Origin: a virus
Direction: 5' to 3' (one strand)
Virus record (IMG/VR): IMGVR_UViG_3300017770_000047
Span: 1 to 37,745 of that record
DNA length: 37,745 nucleotides
Positions 1 through 37,745 of this stretch are shown piece after piece. The notes beneath the pieces are model-generated. The model had not been told where the DNA came from. It did no database searches and worked only from the letters and a program-made list of their open reading frames with translations. The position numbers and the translations under genes are program-made. The number at the start of each line of letters is the position of its first letter. Position 1 is the stretch's first letter.

Positions 1-123
1 AGCCAAGTAATTCCGAACCCATGCGGATTCACTAGCTTAGCTCTATTGATAATCTCTTGGGGTATTTTTTTACCCTTTGGTTTGTGTATGATTAAACACA
101 TTTTGTTCCTTTCGTTTTGGTTG
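1..123. repeat. Terminal direct repeat, left copy (circular overlap)
   Basis: These 123 bases are identical to 37623-37745. Bases 1-101 are the first codons, on the minus strand, of the amidotransferase/cyclotransferase gene that is complete at 36866-37723. A repeat ending inside a gene, with no flanking structure, is what an assembler leaves on a circular or circularly permuted molecule. A true short terminal repeat cannot be excluded from sequence alone. Confidence 0.95.
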
Positions 124-152: not shown

Positions 153-180
153 ATAATAAACATAAATAATTAAATGTCAA
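153..180 (-). promoter_or_regulatory. Sigma70-type promoter for the amidotransferase/cyclotransferase gene
   Basis: On the minus strand there is a perfect -35 TTGACA (175-180), a 16-bp spacer and a -10 TATTAT (153-158). The predicted transcript starts near 146, giving a leader of about 45 nt to the start codon at 101 (37723 in the right copy). Confidence 0.65.
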
Positions 181-322: not shown

Positions 323-352
323 AAAAAAACCCCCACCCCTAAAAGGTGAGGG
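323..352 (-). terminator. Intrinsic terminator after the small-gene operon 368-1246
   Basis: On the minus strand CCCTCACC pairs with GGTGGGGG (8 bp with one G-U pair, 7-nt loop), followed by seven T. It lies just past the stop codon at 368. Confidence 0.85.
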
Positions 353-367
353 CTTGAACTTTATTGA

Positions 368-700
368 TTAGCTCGCCATTAAATCGTTGTAACTTTGCAT
401 TTCTCTTCGCTGATTTAGCTCTGCGTCATTGTATCCGCTGAGGTAAGCCCTAATCATGAGCACTAGCTGAGCTTTCGGATAGTATCCTTCGCCTAATGGG
501 CAGGAACAGCCACCGCCCTTTGACATGCGCTGTATCTGATAGCCACCATATCCGCCTGCTAAAAAATAACAGCCGACATTTGGCGTAAGCTTAATGCGTC
601 CGTTCTCGTCCTTAGTTTGCGTGTATGGCTCATCATGCGAGCCAGTAACATAATTTAAATTGTTAATAATGCCTTTTAGTTTTTCTTTTGTTATTTTCAT
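368..700 (-). CDS. Small Gly/Cys/Tyr-rich protein, unknown function
   Basis: A 110-residue protein I do not recognise. Its middle is unusual: a glycine/tyrosine stretch (AGGYGGYQIQ, about residues 48-57) followed by a compact SKGGGCSCPLGEGYY segment with two cysteines, and there is one further cysteine shortly before. The ends look helical and charged. It is the last gene of a three-gene minus-strand operon (1246 to 368), ending at a strong terminator. It sits between the amidoligase and the amidotransferase/cyclotransferase fusion, so a role as partner or substrate of those enzymes is possible but purely inferred. The start is supported by the leader repeat shared with three neighbouring genes. 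Confidence 0.75.
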   Translation of the reverse strand: MKITKEKLKGIINNLNYVTGSHDEPYTQTKDENGRIKLTPNVGCYFLAGGYGGYQIQRMSKGGGCSCPLGEGYYPKAQLVLMIRAYLSGYNDAELNQRREMQSYNDLMAS

Positions 701-724: not shown

Positions 725-991
725 TTATTTTCCTGTGACGATATTGTGAACTTCGTAACCAAGCAAGTAAGCTTTTCTTTCTAATACCTCTGCTCGTGCT
801 AACTCAAATCTTTCATAATGGGTCTTGATCCATTCATGATCATCCCTGCGATATATAATTTCTTGCCCCTCCATTTCTTTTCTAATTATCTTTTTATAAT
901 CATCAATGGAATTTTTCATAAAGGTAAGCTCTTGATTCATTGTTTCAAGCGAATCGTTTTTGTCTCTTTTTATATAGTCTATGTCTGTCAT
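725..991 (-). CDS. Small charged helical protein, unknown function
   Basis: An 88-residue protein of unknown family, rich in Lys, Glu, Asp and Arg and probably mostly alpha-helical with a short coiled coil (NSIDDYKKIIRKEMEG, then HEWIKTHYERFELARAEVLE). No membrane segment or cysteine is visible. It is the middle gene of the 1246-368 operon. The start is chosen because the shared leader with AAAGGA lies directly upstream. It could be an early host-takeover protein; nothing in the sequence proves this. Confidence 0.7.
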   Translation of the reverse strand: MTDIDYIKRDKNDSLETMNQELTFMKNSIDDYKKIIRKEMEGQEIIYRRDDHEWIKTHYERFELARAEVLERKAYLLGYEVHNIVTGK

Positions 992-1021: not shown

Positions 1022-1246
1022 TTATATGGTTTCAACTTGGAAGCAGTCACTTGATATGTGGGTCTTAACCCAAGACCAGTAACCATTATTAGGGTCTTGC
1101 TCGTAAAGATCAAACTGCACATTTGGACAGCCGTTGCTTATTTTCTCTAGCTTGCGGGTTGCTTGCGTGTCGGTTGCTTTAATCTCCAAATCAAATAAGT
1201 CCGATTTAATGGCGTAATTGCGCTTGGTTTTTCTGTTTTCTTTCAT
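1022..1246 (-). CDS. Small basic/acidic protein, unknown function
   Basis: A 74-residue protein of unknown family. The N-terminus is basic (MKENRKTKRNYAIKS). The C-terminal half is more polar, with two cysteines and an aromatic NNGYWSWVKTH segment (about residues 53-63). It is the first gene of the 1246-368 minus-strand operon, about 50 nt downstream of a good promoter (1303-1330). The conserved leader at 1247-1271 supports the start. Confidence 0.7.
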   Translation of the reverse strand: MKENRKTKRNYAIKSDLFDLEIKATDTQATRKLEKISNGCPNVQFDLYEQDPNNGYWSWVKTHISSDCFQVETI

Positions 1247-1302: not shown

Positions 1303-1330
1303 ATTATTCGGCTTTTTACTTATATGTCAA
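1303..1330 (-). promoter_or_regulatory. Sigma70-type promoter for the 1246-368 operon
   Basis: On the minus strand there is a -35 TTGACA (1325-1330), a 16-bp spacer and a -10 AATAAT (1303-1308). Spacing and the TATTGACAT context match the promoter at 153-180. Predicted start is near 1296, about 50 nt before the first gene. Confidence 0.6.
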
Positions 1331-1705: not shown

Positions 1706-1730
1706 AAAAAAAGCCCCCAATTAAGGGGGC
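1706..1730 (-). terminator. Intrinsic terminator after the amidoligase gene
   Basis: On the minus strand GCCCCC pairs with GGGGGC around TTAATT, followed by seven T. It lies 16 nt past the stop codon at 1747. A second hairpin (GCCTGT/ACAGGC, 1742-1759) overlaps the stop codon itself. Confidence 0.9.
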
Positions 1731-1746
1731 TTGAAATGTAAGCCTG

Positions 1747-2760
1747 TCAACTTACAGGCAAGTTTGAAAGCTTAGGGGCTTTGTCAGCAAATCCAAAGCT
1801 TGCCATGCGACCAATCAAGAATTTGATCAAATATTCATGCCCCTTAGAGCATGGAATCAATTTGCCGAACTCATCATCAACCGCCCATTTCAACTGCTTG
1901 AGTGTATTTTGCATAGGTTGCTGATAGAAATTACGAGTCTTTTTGACTGATTCAAGCCCCCTTAATACTTGAGCCTGTGTAAAAGCTAACCAAAACACAG
2001 CTTTAGAATAATCAAGTGTACCTTGGTGCTGTCTATATTCAATCGTTCCATGCTTAGCAAAGGCTGTTAAGTTGAGATTCCTGTACCTGTAATGGGTGTC
2101 TTGATTCACAGCAACATCTCGCGTATTTTTGATACCTTTCTTTTCCATGAATTTACGGGTTTGCTTTTGGGTGATCCAGTAAGCAGTATCTAATACATTA
2201 CGATTTGATTTACTGTAAAAACAATCACCCCGTCTTGATTCGGATACTAAGCAGTCAATAGCTTCCTCATTAGCTACTGTGAAATTGGATAGATTCTGTA
2301 ATCGTTTAGCTGTGAATCTTGTTCCTACATGGTGTACATGCATGCCACATGTTTTGTTCACCTTGCAATTATACTCATTAAGAATAAATAACACCTGTTG
2401 CAATTGCACAATCAATTGATCAAATGTAAGGTTACAAGGGCTTGTAATTTCAAAGCCTGTATAATTATGCCATGAACGAAAAGAGGAACGCCTAAGGCTT
2501 CCGTCTGTCTTAAATACCCATAATGGAAAAGCCCTGCCATTGGCATCAATCCAGTTGAGATTTTGCAACATAACTGCTTGTGATAGCCTGTTGCGTATTT
2601 CGTCAGCCTTATCAGTAGGGGCAAAGAATTCCAATTCTATTGCCATTGTACGACTGTTGTCAGTTACTTCTTGTGCTATTGTGCGGCTCATGCCGCCATC
2701 TATATTTGTGATCATTTCTTTTATTTGGTTTAGGTTAATTTGACGGTACATAGGTACCAT
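1747..2760 (-). CDS. Amidoligase (Amidoligase_2 / COOH-NH2 ligase family)
   Basis: A 337-residue member of the glutamine-synthetase-fold amidoligases, predicted to use ATP to join a carboxylate to an amine. Visible family motifs are MAIELEFF (39-46, metal-binding acidic pair), KTDGSL (84-89), GFEITSP (102-108), TCGMHVHH (137-144), YRNLNL (226-231) and GTIEYRQHQGTLD (238-250). No catalytic block appears to be missing. Family members are known to neighbour a class II amidotransferase-like thiol peptidase or an AIG2-type cyclotransferase; here both occur fused in one gene just downstream across the circular join. The substrate is unknown. The start is uncertain: ATG at 2760 overlaps a GGTACC site, and a second ATG lies three codons later. 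It is a single-gene unit with its own terminator. Confidence 0.85.
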   Translation of the reverse strand: MVPMYRQINLNQIKEMITNIDGGMSRTIAQEVTDNSRTMAIELEFFAPTDKADEIRNRLSQAVMLQNLNWIDANGRAFPLWVFKTDGSLRRSSFRSWHNYTGFEITSPCNLTFDQLIVQLQQVLFILNEYNCKVNKTCGMHVHHVGTRFTAKRLQNLSNFTVANEEAIDCLVSESRRGDCFYSKSNRNVLDTAYWITQKQTRKFMEKKGIKNTRDVAVNQDTHYRYRNLNLTAFAKHGTIEYRQHQGTLDYSKAVFWLAFTQAQVLRGLESVKKTRNFYQQPMQNTLKQLKWAVDDEFGKLIPCSKGHEYLIKFLIGRMASFGFADKAPKLSNLPVS

Positions 2761-3741: not shown

Positions 3742-5393
3742 TGCAATTTACAAATCATCCTATACTAAAGGCTCCAACTGACGAAGAGATTGTTCTGCTT
3801 GCTGAGAGTGACCCAAAAATACTAAGGGATCTTCACGAGGCTCACGAGGGAAGAATAAAGGCTAGTATAGAGGATCCGCTTAGGTACGGATTCAATTTGG
3901 ACGGATGGGAGAGAATGAAGGACTCCCTTGAATCATACAATGAGTGCTTAACCCTTGGGGGTAATAGAAGCGGCAAGACTACTGGTTGTGCTAAGATATT
4001 AATGGAGTCCGTAATTAATAATACCGACGGTCATATAGTATGCTTCAGTCAAAACGCTGATACATCTGTTAAAGTACAACAAGCTGCTGTATGGTCTATG
4101 ATGCCAAAAGAGTTCAGAAAGAAAACAAAAAGTATAGAGGGATATATAAATTATTCTATGCAAAATGGTTTTACTGGTAGTAGTTTTATTTTTCCAGATA
4201 CTAGAACTAGGGTAGACTTTAAAACTTACACTCAGTTCAGTAATAACCAAACCATCTTAGAGGGATTTGAGTTCGGCTTCCCAAACCCAGAATATGTAAA
4301 CATAGGTGCTTGGCTGGATGAATACCTTGGTGATGCATCATTAGTAAATACTTTGAGGTTTAGGTTAGCTACCAGAAACTCAAAGCTTATAGTAGGTTTT
4401 ACACCTATTGATGGCTTTACCCCTTTTATAAGTGACTACCTAAAAAATGTAGAAACTACGGAGACAAGACCAGCTAAGCTGTTGAATAACAGGCAGTTAC
4501 CAATTAAACAATACTCACCTGATCGTGATGCTGGTGTAGTGTATCTGCATACTGACGAAAACCCATTCGGTGGTTACGACCGTATTGCCAAGGACTTAGA
4601 GAATAGTAATGAGGACGATATACTTGTAAGAGCATATGGAGTACCAGTAAAATCAACAACAACGCTTCTTCCGCTTTTTAATACTGAAGTTAATGTACTT
4701 TCTGATGAACCCAACAAATACGATATGTCGTTTCCAGACATAAGTGAAAAGGATAAGTTCACCTGTTACATGGTAGTTGACCCAGCAGGCGCAAGGAACT
4801 ATTCAGCTATATGGGCTGGTGTAGATGAAGATGGATCCGTATACATAAGAAAAGAGTTCCCTGATAAGGATAGTTACGGTGAGTGGGCTATTTTTGGGGA
4901 GCCCAAGTGGAGATACGGTCCAGCATCTAAGAAGTTGGGATTCGATGTTGAATCCTATGCCAATATGTTCAATGAAATAGAGGCTGATCTGGGTATTGAT
5001 GTGTACGAAAGAATAGGTGACTCAAGATACTTTGCTAGGGAAGATGAAAATAATGATGACCTGTTTAGGTTATTTGAGCAAAGAGGAATGTACTTCCTTG
5101 CCAGCAATGGTACTATAGAAGATGTAGGCATCAATGCTCTTGACGAGTGGTTTAGCTACAATCCAAATTTACCAGTAGATAAAGCCAACTGCCCACAATG
5201 TTTCATACACAGAGAATGCGGAAATTTAATTGAGTCATTAATTAACTACGGAAGCAGGGGAAAATCAGACGAAGCTCTAAAGGACTTTTTTGACACTATA
5301 AGATATTTAAGAATGCATAACAGCGGAGATGGTCCAGATCACATTAAAAACGCAAGCTTACGATCTACCCTTAAAAGTAAAGGTGGTTACTAA
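3741..5393 (+). CDS. terL: Terminase large subunit (packaging ATPase-nuclease)
   Basis: A 550-residue motor that pumps DNA into the prohead and cuts it. The ATPase half has a Walker A loop GGNRSGKT (73-80) and a Walker B-like WLDE (191-194). The C-terminal RNase H-like nuclease half shows VVDPAG (acidic D347), GDSR (D428) and DFFDTIRYL (D517 near the end), the expected three acidic positions. Length is typical for phage large terminases. It overlaps the small subunit by 1 bp and the next gene by 1 bp (TAATG). The packaging mode (cos, pac or terminal repeat) cannot be told from the sequence. Confidence 0.95.
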   Translation: MQFTNHPILKAPTDEEIVLLAESDPKILRDLHEAHEGRIKASIEDPLRYGFNLDGWERMKDSLESYNECLTLGGNRSGKTTGCAKILMESVINNTDGHIVCFSQNADTSVKVQQAAVWSMMPKEFRKKTKSIEGYINYSMQNGFTGSSFIFPDTRTRVDFKTYTQFSNNQTILEGFEFGFPNPEYVNIGAWLDEYLGDASLVNTLRFRLATRNSKLIVGFTPIDGFTPFISDYLKNVETTETRPAKLLNNRQLPIKQYSPDRDAGVVYLHTDENPFGGYDRIAKDLENSNEDDILVRAYGVPVKSTTTLLPLFNTEVNVLSDEPNKYDMSFPDISEKDKFTCYMVVDPAGARNYSAIWAGVDEDGSVYIRKEFPDKDSYGEWAIFGEPKWRYGPASKKLGFDVESYANMFNEIEADLGIDVYERIGDSRYFAREDENNDDLFRLFEQRGMYFLASNGTIEDVGINALDEWFSYNPNLPVDKANCPQCFIHRECGNLIESLINYGSRGKSDEALKDFFDTIRYLRMHNSGDGPDHIKNASLRSTLKSKGGY

Positions 5394-22906: not shown

Positions 22907-24772
22907 ATGGGATCACCATCAACACCTCCACCCCCTGAACCATTTGATGCGGCAAAAGCCACAGGAGAATATTTCTTTGGACAAGACTTTAGTGATTTTG
23001 ATGGTATTCTTGATGACAGGTTACAGCAAAGATTTATTGATGCTGAAAGAAAGTATGGACCTGAATATGCAGACATTCAGTTAAATAATATCCGCACTAT
23101 GGCGGAAGGAACTGATGGAGACGGTGGAATATTTGGTATTTTAAGAGATGAAGCAGTAAAATCAGGAGATTTACAGAGGTCAGAATTAGGTAAACAAAGA
23201 GCAGATGATTTAACTGCTGTTCAACAGTTAGCTCCTCAAATTGTTGATGCTTTTAGGGGTGCTGACGAAGAAAGCACAGCTATAGCTGAAACCGCTGACA
23301 AAAGAATTGGTCAAGGTACTGGTATTGGGGCATTAGGACAAAATTTAATTGGAAGTCAGTTAGGTGCGGCAGGAGCAGAAGAACAAGCAATAAGGCAAAG
23401 AGGATTAGCAGATATTACTGCTGGTCGTGAGGCGGCTAGTGCAACTGAACAAGCATTACAATCACAAGGTTTTTCTAATTTAAATGCTCAACGAGAAGGT
23501 GCCAGCACAGGAGAACAAGCATTACAAGCTCAAGGATTAGCTGGTTTAGGTTCTCAGGTAGCAGGTGCTAGTTCAGCAGAACAACAACTACAAGCTTTGG
23601 CAATGAGCCAAAGTGCTCTTGGTTCAACACCACAAGAAGCACTTCTTGCACAACAAGGCATGGAAGGCTTACAATCAACTGGTGAGCTTTCAGCACTAGA
23701 AAACATAAGACTTACTGATTCAATAAGAGAAGGTTCTTTAGCGAGAGGTAGGGAAATGGATACTAGCTCTATAGCCGCTGAAGCTAGGGGTCGCTTTTCT
23801 GAAGAGTTAAATAAAAAAGAAAGAGAAAGAGCAATTGGTTCTCAGTTACTTGGTCAGAGTGATCAAATGCGTCAACAAAGGTTATCTCAAGGTGCTAGTG
23901 CTCTTACTGGCGTAGATGCTCTTTCTGCACAACGCAGAGCCGAACAAATGCAAAGGCAACAATTTGGTGCACAGAATATAGGCGCAACAGAAGCTTTTGC
24001 GGCTCAACGAAGGGCTGAACAAATGCAAAGGCAAGGATTCGGTGCACAAAGTTTAGGTCAAGTTAGCAGTATAGAAGCTCAACGAAGAGCAGAAGAAATG
24101 GCAAGACAAGGTATGGGTACTCAAACATTGGGTGCATCCGCTGGTCTTTCAGCACAGAGAAGGGCTGAACTAATTCGTCAACAACAACTAGGAGCAGGAT
24201 TAGTAGGAGCTGAAGATAGCATACAGTCAGGTCGTTTAGGTCAGGCTTTTCAGATGAATAGAAACCTAGCAGGGGATCTTGGTTCTACTATACTTGGAAG
24301 ACCTTCTCAATCTATACCACTAGGTCAAAGTATTTTGGGTTCTGCTACACAGGGAGCAAATAATCTTGGAGGTCAACTATTTGATCAAAATGCAGGAATT
24401 AATATAGGTCTTCAACAAAGAGGACAAGATTTAAATTATCAATCAGCTGTATACGAAGGACAATCTGGAGCATTTGGAGGATTGATGAGTGGATTAGGAA
24501 CTGCAGTTGGAGGTGCAATGGGAGGTCCATTTGGAGCTGCTTTAGGAGGACAACTATTTGGGGGAGGTTCTCCCACTTGTTGGGTAGCTCGTGAAGTTTA
24601 TGGTGAAGATAATCCAAAATGGTTACTATTTAGAAACTGGATGTTATGCGATGCTCCTACTTGGTTTAGAAATATATATATTAAATATGGAGAACGCTTT
24701 GCTAAATTTATATCTAATAAACCTTTATTAAAAAATATTATTCGTTCATGGATGAATAAAAAAATTAAATAA
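22907..24772 (+). CDS. Internal virion/ejection protein A, Gln/Ala-rich
   Basis: A 621-residue protein starting with a proline stretch (MGSPSTPPPPEPFD). The centre is rich in Gln, Ala, Gly and Arg, with imperfect repeats of about 24 residues carrying AQRRAEQMQRQ (about 340-430). A glycine-zipper region (GTAVGGAMGGPFGAALGG, about 530-548) could insert in membranes. The C-terminus (CWVAREVYGEDNPKWLLFRN, then WMLCDAPTWFRN) is a compact aromatic cap, like the end domain on other phage virion proteins. Likely ejected into the host to extend the tail channel. Confidence 0.72.
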   Translation: MGSPSTPPPPEPFDAAKATGEYFFGQDFSDFDGILDDRLQQRFIDAERKYGPEYADIQLNNIRTMAEGTDGDGGIFGILRDEAVKSGDLQRSELGKQRADDLTAVQQLAPQIVDAFRGADEESTAIAETADKRIGQGTGIGALGQNLIGSQLGAAGAEEQAIRQRGLADITAGREAASATEQALQSQGFSNLNAQREGASTGEQALQAQGLAGLGSQVAGASSAEQQLQALAMSQSALGSTPQEALLAQQGMEGLQSTGELSALENIRLTDSIREGSLARGREMDTSSIAAEARGRFSEELNKKERERAIGSQLLGQSDQMRQQRLSQGASALTGVDALSAQRRAEQMQRQQFGAQNIGATEAFAAQRRAEQMQRQGFGAQSLGQVSSIEAQRRAEEMARQGMGTQTLGASAGLSAQRRAELIRQQQLGAGLVGAEDSIQSGRLGQAFQMNRNLAGDLGSTILGRPSQSIPLGQSILGSATQGANNLGGQLFDQNAGINIGLQQRGQDLNYQSAVYEGQSGAFGGLMSGLGTAVGGAMGGPFGAALGGQLFGGGSPTCWVAREVYGEDNPKWLLFRNWMLCDAPTWFRNIYIKYGERFAKFISNKPLLKNIIRSWMNKKIK

Positions 24773-36865: not shown

Positions 36866-37723
36866 TTAGAATGGCAGGTAGAATTCATGGACTGGCTTTG
36901 TATCGTCAAACCATCGGTTCTGCACAAAGTAGACCCAAGCGTAAGTCTCGCTCCAATCATACATCTGAACTGGTATAACCTTGCGTTTGTAAAAATTGGG
37001 GTGACCCTCTAACTGATCCAGTCTTTGTAGGCACTCAAAATCAACATCATAGATTTCTAATTCTACATTGTGACCCACCCCCTTTTCTTCGTGCAGGTAA
37101 GGCAAGCCGTCAACCTCTAATGGGTATTGATCCTTAGTGACCGCCTCGCCAATCCGTTCTTGACCGCTTAACAGGTCGCTGTTGTGGTAACCGCTTTTAA
37201 GAGTACCATATACGCCCACCCTGTATTTTTGCGGAAAACAGTTAGTCTTTGAATAGTCAATGCCATTGAGCGTGTGCCACTTGCCCACCCTTTGAACTGT
37301 GCCAAGCTTGGTATTGACAATCGCAAAGCGTGTATCTGTAAGCTCTAAGAATGGCAACCAGTAGTGATCCTCTAGCTTACTCAGTACATCTTCTGCAATA
37401 CAGCTAATGTCGGATTGTGTCTTTGTGCCAAACCCTTGAACTGTGCCATTTGAGTAAATGACTTCATCCGTCCCATTGATTGGAAATGGGTGAACATTGT
37501 TCCTGTCAATCTTGCCTACTGTAGCGTAGCGGAAATGACAGACTAGCGGTCTTGTGGTTGTTGATAGCGTCCGTACTGTTGTACTGTTGTAATCAGTCGT
37601 ACGCTCTGTCTTGCCATCGTCAAGCCAAGTAATTCCGAACCCATGCGGATTCACTAGCTTAGCTCTATTGATAATCTCTTGGGGTATTTTTTTACCCTTT
37701 GGTTTGTGTATGATTAAACACAT
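36866..37723 (-). CDS. Class II glutamine amidotransferase-like / gamma-glutamylcyclotransferase fusion
   Basis: A 285-residue two-domain enzyme. Residues 1-165 are an Ntn-type class II glutamine amidotransferase-like domain: nucleophile C2 right after Met, NPHGFGI (25-31), CHFRYATVG (62-70), VHPF and SNGTVQG (91-97). Residues 167-285 are a GGCT/AIG2 domain: VYGTLKSGYHN (171-181) and the catalytic-type glutamate in LDQLEGHPNFYKR (E239). Expected reactions are amide-bond or glutaminyl hydrolysis and release of gamma-glutamyl groups as 5-oxoproline. Known amidoligases neighbour one or other of these enzymes; the fusion of both here suggests they act on the same product. It has its own promoter and terminator. 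The start has the shared early leader. Confidence 0.87.
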   Translation of the reverse strand: MCLIIHKPKGKKIPQEIINRAKLVNPHGFGITWLDDGKTERTTDYNSTTVRTLSTTTRPLVCHFRYATVGKIDRNNVHPFPINGTDEVIYSNGTVQGFGTKTQSDISCIAEDVLSKLEDHYWLPFLELTDTRFAIVNTKLGTVQRVGKWHTLNGIDYSKTNCFPQKYRVGVYGTLKSGYHNSDLLSGQERIGEAVTKDQYPLEVDGLPYLHEEKGVGHNVELEIYDVDFECLQRLDQLEGHPNFYKRKVIPVQMYDWSETYAWVYFVQNRWFDDTKPVHEFYLPF

Positions 37724-37745
37724 TTTGTTCCTTTCGTTTTGGTTG
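37623..37745. repeat. Terminal direct repeat, right copy (circular overlap)
   Basis: Identical to 1-123. It covers the first 34 codons of the amidotransferase/cyclotransferase gene and the 22 bases before its start. The promoter for that gene is only present in the left copy's continuation (153-180). Confidence 0.95.

Follow-up and report, generated by a model that had tools for sequence, protein, structure and literature searches.

In a 37,745-nt stretch of viral DNA (hereafter the window), the circularising genome of a marine-type phage, we found an amidoligase gene (1747..2760, minus strand; P0001, 337 aa) together with a gene (36866..37723, minus strand; P0002, 285 aa) that joins an N-terminal class II GATase (GAT-II, Ntn) domain to a C-terminal gamma-glutamylamine cyclotransferase (GGACT) domain. 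Both proteins have the folds and motifs of their families, both are conserved, and their genes occur in a near-obligate pairing that is far beyond chance. On balance, we consider it probable that the two proteins form a gamma-glutamyl-amide make-and-break module, which would be a condensed form of the cassette carried by phages of the phiEco32/RIO-1 type. This kind of system is already known; however, the conserved single-chain GAT-II–GGACT fusion, the reduction to a minimal set of two genes and their near-obligate pairing appear to be new.

A perfect 123-bp direct repeat is present at both ends of the window (left copy 1..123, right copy 37623..37745), so the genome closes to a circle of 37,622 bp; the left copy includes the opening 101 bases of the fusion gene. 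Over the circular join the ligase and fusion genes are 1.65 kb apart, in agreement with a preliminary description of this DNA, which had placed them on the same strand and close together once the genome is circularised. The neighbourhood is independent of the join, because an IMG/VR contig with a 100% identical fusion (L005) runs without a break from the end of the ligase gene to the start of the fusion gene, across a 1,645-bp gap. The amidoligase is the first leftward gene past a divergent intergenic region, and three small minus-strand ORFs with no family lie between it and the fusion, encoding 74 aa (1022..1246), 88 aa (725..991) and 110 aa (368..700). We refer to the ligase and fusion genes as early because they are placed with the replication genes.

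Same strand and proximity do not imply a single operon here, because intrinsic-terminator-like hairpins intervene between the two genes. One of these (1711..1732, minus strand) directly follows the ligase and has an 8-bp stem with 6 G-C pairs and a T-run; the other (327..355, minus strand), with a 13-bp stem and a T-run, lies after the 110-aa ORF and before the fusion. The ligase and fusion are therefore probably not on one transcript, and a simple two-gene operon is unsupported. Two minus-strand sigma-70-like matches, each 11/12, were also found, TTGACA-16-AATAAT (1303..1330) ahead of the small-ORF block and TTGACA-16-TATTAT (153..180) about 50 nt 5′ of the fusion start codon. Terminator-like sites are well above chance in the window (13 versus 2.0 expected from shuffles), whereas promoter-like sites are not (11 versus 11.8 expected), so separate transcription units are suggested only.

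The preliminary description had identified the gene at 1747..2760 as an amidoligase, and the profile searches bear this out. P0001 matched PF12224 (Amidoligase_2) with an E-value of 2.3e-23 and 83.8 bits (cut-off 22), and PHROG 2443 (amidoligase) with an E-value of 9e-24. Its AlphaFold2 model (pLDDT 87.1, pTM 0.88) has the carboxylate-amine ligase YbdK as its best PDB match (1r8g, E 2.6e-6) and also matches glutamine synthetases and a gamma-glutamyl-methylamide synthetase (9qur, E 3.3e-4); this structural homology is remote, because the TM-scores are about 0.4. Residues E42, E44, S88, E104, H141, H143, E241 and R243 are invariant across 25 ligases, and the model is consistent with a glutamine synthetase (GS)/GCS fold bearing conserved acidic and His catalytic residues. 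We predict from its sequence that P0001 is an ATP-dependent amide-bond-forming ligase of the carboxylate-amine type. Relatives of P0001 are very rare in named phages, with tblastn matches in 32 of 50,697 phage records.

Within the fusion protein, the GAT-II (Ntn hydrolase) domain comprises residues 1-163 (37235..37723, minus strand) and the GGACT/AIG2-like domain residues 166-270 (36914..37228, minus strand). Residues 171-269 matched PF06094 (GGACT) with an E-value of 1.6e-17 and 64.6 bits (cut-off 22.8), and residues 26-102 gave a marginal match to PF13230 (GATase_4; E 2.2e-5, 24 bits, cut-off 23). The weak profile call for the N-terminal domain is backed by structural matches of the AlphaFold2 model, whose pTM of 0.71 at a mean pLDDT of 93.9 is expected when both domains are modelled confidently but their relative orientation is less certain. 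The best structural match of the modelled N-terminal half is the glutaminase domain of GlmS (1xff, E 9.7e-6), and this half also matches EgtC with glutamine (4zfk, E 7.5e-4). The modelled C-terminus matches mouse and human GGACT (1vkb, E 3.7e-10; 3jud; 3juc with 5-oxoproline), which is the best PDB match of this domain by sequence as well; the human/mouse protein (A2LD1), however, consists of one domain and is not partnered by a phage ligase. The fusion gene predicted in the preliminary description is thus recognizable by profile and by fold in both of its halves.

The residues expected of each family are also in place. The N-terminal half has the M1-C2 nucleophile, the Arg of the HFRxAT motif (R65), the NG oxyanion motif and the substrate Asp (D105) of class II GATases, and the C-terminal half has the YGTLK loop and catalytic Glu, together with the profile score and fold, of GGACT/AIG2-like (PF06094) proteins. 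Across 45 fusion proteins, C2, H63, R65, H78, N92, G93 and D105 of the GAT-II domain are invariant, as are the YGTL loop (Y172-L175) and the catalytic-type Glu (E239) of the GGACT domain, so that the full motif sets claimed for both genes extend to 45 fusions and 25 ligases. The fusion gene is under purifying selection (dN/dS 0.15 in comparison with a close relative, L006). Chance or mis-annotated ORFs were rejected on the basis of the profiles, the models and the residue conservation. Three contigs have an in-frame TGA in the GAT-II half of an otherwise intact fusion gene, with the GGACT half left open: L095 at the position of W122 (5339-5341), and L013 (7391) and L014 (10118) at position 39. 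Stop-codon recoding was rejected for these contigs, since there is no general TGA signal and long ORFs are intact. These TGAs could reflect errors of assembly or a real loss; in the latter case the GAT-II half would be dispensable in some phages.

To examine the association of the two genes, viral contigs were searched with the fusion alignment, which gave the best 80 of 116 relatives. Pairing was scored by ORF calling and iterative profiles in 85 entries, and redundancy removal left 49 entries. In 77 of the 85 entries the fusion was preceded by a ligase-type gene in the same orientation; in the other eight, which had none, the sequence upstream of the fusion is always shorter than 2.65 kb. 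Hence, among the matches listed, all loci whose upstream sequence was long enough were paired (77/77), in constant order and strand and with gaps ranging from -19 to 3,930 bp. The non-redundant set gave the same picture: 45 of 49 loci were paired and the remaining four end early, that is, 45/45 with enough DNA. Co-occurrence had been named in advance, in the preliminary description, as the test on which the proposal could fail, and the proposal came through it, with no gap exceeding 3,930 bp. The upstream gene belongs to one of two ligase subfamilies. The window lineage has the Amidoligase_2 type, and the ~60-kb relatives of MW202828 have a more divergent, P0003-like type; the two are homologous (hhalign probability 99.6, E 1.7e-24). 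In MW202828 itself (L004 4964-6854), annotated GroES and GroEL genes lie a few kb from the ligase-fusion pair.

Within the viral contigs and a pattern-limited scan of 84,980 species genomes, the GAT-II–GGACT fusion was seen only in viral contigs; the genome scan returned GGCT-domain matches only, and no fusion. We set aside a cellular source of the fusion given these GGCT-only matches, which, coming from a pattern-limited scan, do not amount to proof. Contigs L128 and L130, which also bear the ligase, look viral from their remaining genes. Prophage GGCTs were caught by the narrower GGCT profile and missed by the broader one, whose tally of partners was therefore left out as a rate.

The preliminary description had further presented the pair as a candidate for an undescribed system, and in this respect it has to be corrected. 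A cassette with amidoligase, class II GATase and GGCT has already been described in phages (PMC5498523, PMC3890496, PMC10580990); it is a predicted peptidoglycan-modification set, possibly preventing superinfection (PMC5498523, PMC10580990), and its genes are listed in UFV-P2 (PMC3890496). We also saw the set in RIO-1, in phiEco32 and in the Arthrobacter phage Waltz; in Waltz, GGACT, amidoligase and GATase are separate genes in a row. As in the window, Amidoligase_2, class II GATase and AIG2/GGCT occur together in phiEco32 (phi32_77-86), RIO-1 (RIO-1_8-14), PSA-HP1 and LUZ24/tf/UFV-P2, and the cassette genes of phiEco32/RIO-1-type phages are likewise placed among early or replication-side genes. 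Profiles built from the window lineage recovered the phiEco32 and RIO-1 counterparts of the amidoligase (1e-22 and 3e-13, respectively), the GATase (3e-8 and 1e-8) and the GGCT (1e-16 and 5e-14). The window therefore has the three activities of this cassette close together, but it differs from it in two ways. First, GATase and GGCT are separate genes in the phiEco32/RIO-1-type cassette, neighbouring the amidoligase gene in phiEco32 and in RIO-1 (in RIO-1 together with COOH-NH2 ligase and RimK-like genes), whereas in the window they are one protein. Second, the cassette adds a RimK-like ATP-grasp ligase and a COOH-NH2 ligase, and the window has neither: a Pfam scan of the 48 window ORFs gave no ATP-grasp and no PF14395 (COOH-NH2 ligase) match, and phmmer searches with the phiEco32/RIO-1 proteins found neither extra ligase in the fusion loci searched. 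Thus, the larger phage amidoligase cassettes have five characteristic enzymes and the window lineage manages with two proteins, which makes the ligase and fusion a minimal system open to expression and assay. Our literature search found no laboratory test, substrate or activity for any member of the phage cassettes.

The sole named close relative of the window phage is C75C1 (OQ984151). It has the same fusion, at 59% identity, and an amidoligase, at 37% identity, with the fusion lying 0.85 kb downstream; like the window, it has the pair as its first leftward genes, and it shares the genome plan and a TerL at 72%. The small ORFs between ligase and fusion, however, are different, and its annotation gives only a separate 'amidoligase enzyme' and 'gamma-glutamyl cyclotransferase'. 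More distant arrangements are found in the Methylophilales phage MEP402 (gp06-gp07) and the Acinetobacter phage vB_AciJM_313 (CDS 27-28), in which an amidoligase-like gene adjoins or overlaps a class II GATase gene, but the ligase is larger (548 and 676 aa) and the GATase is without a GGACT fusion.

GCS/GS-fold ligases, Ntn GAT-II enzymes and GGACT all handle amides of the glutamate gamma-carboxyl or closely similar bonds: the ligases form such amides with ATP, GAT-II enzymes attack through a cysteine thioester, and GGACT turns gamma-glutamyl amines into 5-oxoproline and acts on gamma-glutamyl-lysine-type isopeptides. In the make-and-break module, the ligase would activate a carboxylate with ATP and couple it to an amine. 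With glutamate-cysteine ligase and YbdK taken as analogues, the gamma-carboxyl group of either glutamate or a glutamyl peptide would be the most likely carboxylate. The fusion would then act on gamma-glutamyl amides, breaking or editing them through two active sites: the Ntn domain would attack by forming a gamma-glutamyl thioester on its N-terminal cysteine, and the GGACT domain would cyclise the gamma-glutamyl amine to 5-oxoproline and free amine. The physical joining of GATase and GGCT suggests that they serve the same step or the same substrate. Candidate substrates would be a peptidoglycan precursor, a small amine or a protein, with a cell-wall precursor as the standing guess. The substrate is probably cytoplasmic, because neither protein, judged by eye, opens with an evident secretion signal, and the early-arm position points to an effect on the host shortly after infection. 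What we infer here is the gamma-glutamyl substrate class, the direction of flux, the cellular target and the benefit, and the 'amide tagging' of a target in the preliminary description belongs with these. Ergothioneine biosynthesis provides a chemical precedent, since EgtC, an amidohydrolase of the class II GATase fold, takes off a glutamyl group and EgtA resembles gamma-glutamyl-cysteine ligase (PMC9103826). As in the window, a GCS-like ligase is thus paired with a GATase-fold Ntn hydrolase, and EgtC structures match the P0002 model; EgtA/EgtC differ in belonging to a cellular metabolic pathway and in being without a GGACT domain, and the homology is remote only. Against the make-and-break module we count the GAT-II TGAs of L095, L013 and L014, the intervening hairpins and the ligase TM-scores of about 0.4, as well as the alternative use of the GAT-II domain that is considered below.

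The target proposed in the literature is the cell wall. According to the papers that cite Iyer et al. 2009 and Hardies et al. 2013, remodelling of peptidoglycan would block superinfection by other phages, an idea that these papers trace to Iyer et al. 2009 and apply to phiEco32, RIO-1 and PSA-HP1 (PMC5498523, PMC10580990). This reading specifies only the target, so it and the make-and-break module can both be true; we regard it as possible, short of probable. A SleB-like cell wall hydrolase (PF07486, 35020-35436), with a hydrophobic N-terminus, is encoded in the same leftward arm of the window phage, beside the replication genes, but almost all phages require an endolysin. Furthermore, a single wall linkage is not obvious, because the ligases occur in phages of Arthrobacter, Bacillus and Porphyromonas, hosts with differing wall chemistry. 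If wall precursors are the target, the pair would offer a first test of the cited superinfection-exclusion idea; if they are not, it would point to an unknown phage-host chemical modification.

Alternatively, the GAT-II domain could be an ammonia donor for the ligase, which would amidate a carboxylate in a glutamine-dependent manner (for instance on peptidoglycan stem peptides, as in MurT/GatD- or AsnB-type reactions) while GGACT clears gamma-glutamyl by-products. The complete set of canonical GAT-II residues and the GlmS glutaminase match of that half are in keeping with this scheme, and MurT-GatD is a precedent for GATase-driven wall amidation (PMC3267633). We nevertheless think it rather unlikely. 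The GAT-II domain is fused to a cyclotransferase rather than to the ligase, and such a donor needs no partner that cuts gamma-glutamyl amines; in addition, Geobacillus phage GR1 and Bacillus phage 031MP004 have a partial set in which amidoligase and GGCT are adjacent with no GATase annotated nearby. With both cutting domains in one chain, apart from the ligase, make-and-break fits better than an ammonia-donor amidotransferase.

We can further speculate, with low confidence, that the pair is a self-contained phage write/erase system that would reversibly mark a host or phage molecule with a gamma-glutamyl-type tag in early infection, with a target unlike the known ones. Still more doubtful is a role in counter-defence or host take-over, through (de-)glutamylation of a protein or small molecule that inactivates, for example, a defence protein or an amine signal. 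The early-arm position beside family-less small ORFs, the probably cytoplasmic location of the enzymes and the activity of the GGACT family on isopeptides would all suit such a role, but no defence target or association was found and the neighbourhood points to none. Amino-acid-linked base modifications exist in other phages, and the ligase might in principle couple an amino acid to a phage base; this is very improbable, given that the Pfam scan of the 48 window ORFs revealed no base-hydroxylating, base-kinase, thymidylate-synthase-like or deazaguanine genes. Finally, that two unrelated accessory genes lie close by accident, as the intervening hairpins and small ORFs might suggest, is scarcely credible and, as a general statement, is refuted by the pairing of all 77 informative loci among the matches listed, with their gaps of -19 to 3,930 bp and constant order and strand, for a ligase whose relatives are otherwise so rare in named phage records.

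The region also contains repeated elements. A GGTACC-centred palindrome, GGGGTACCCC, often with an A-run before it and a T-run after it, recurs in the window at 212-295, 1482-1662, 29715, 33749, 36403 and 36732; its RGKGTACC form has 21 matches versus 2.2 expected. The palindrome is also concentrated near the ligase and fusion genes of C75C1 and of contig L009 (L003 16417-19368; L009 959-4245); L018 and L028 lack it. A repeated ribosome-binding region, with copies at 82-129, 683-730, 973-1020 and 1228-1275, gives four early genes, the fusion among them, nearly the same leader (like AACCAAAACAAAAGGAAATAAAATG, minus strand). Elsewhere in the window, the gene at 22907-24772 contains imperfect 75-bp repeats (23914-24207) that encode a repeated motif of the A-Q-R-R-A-E type.
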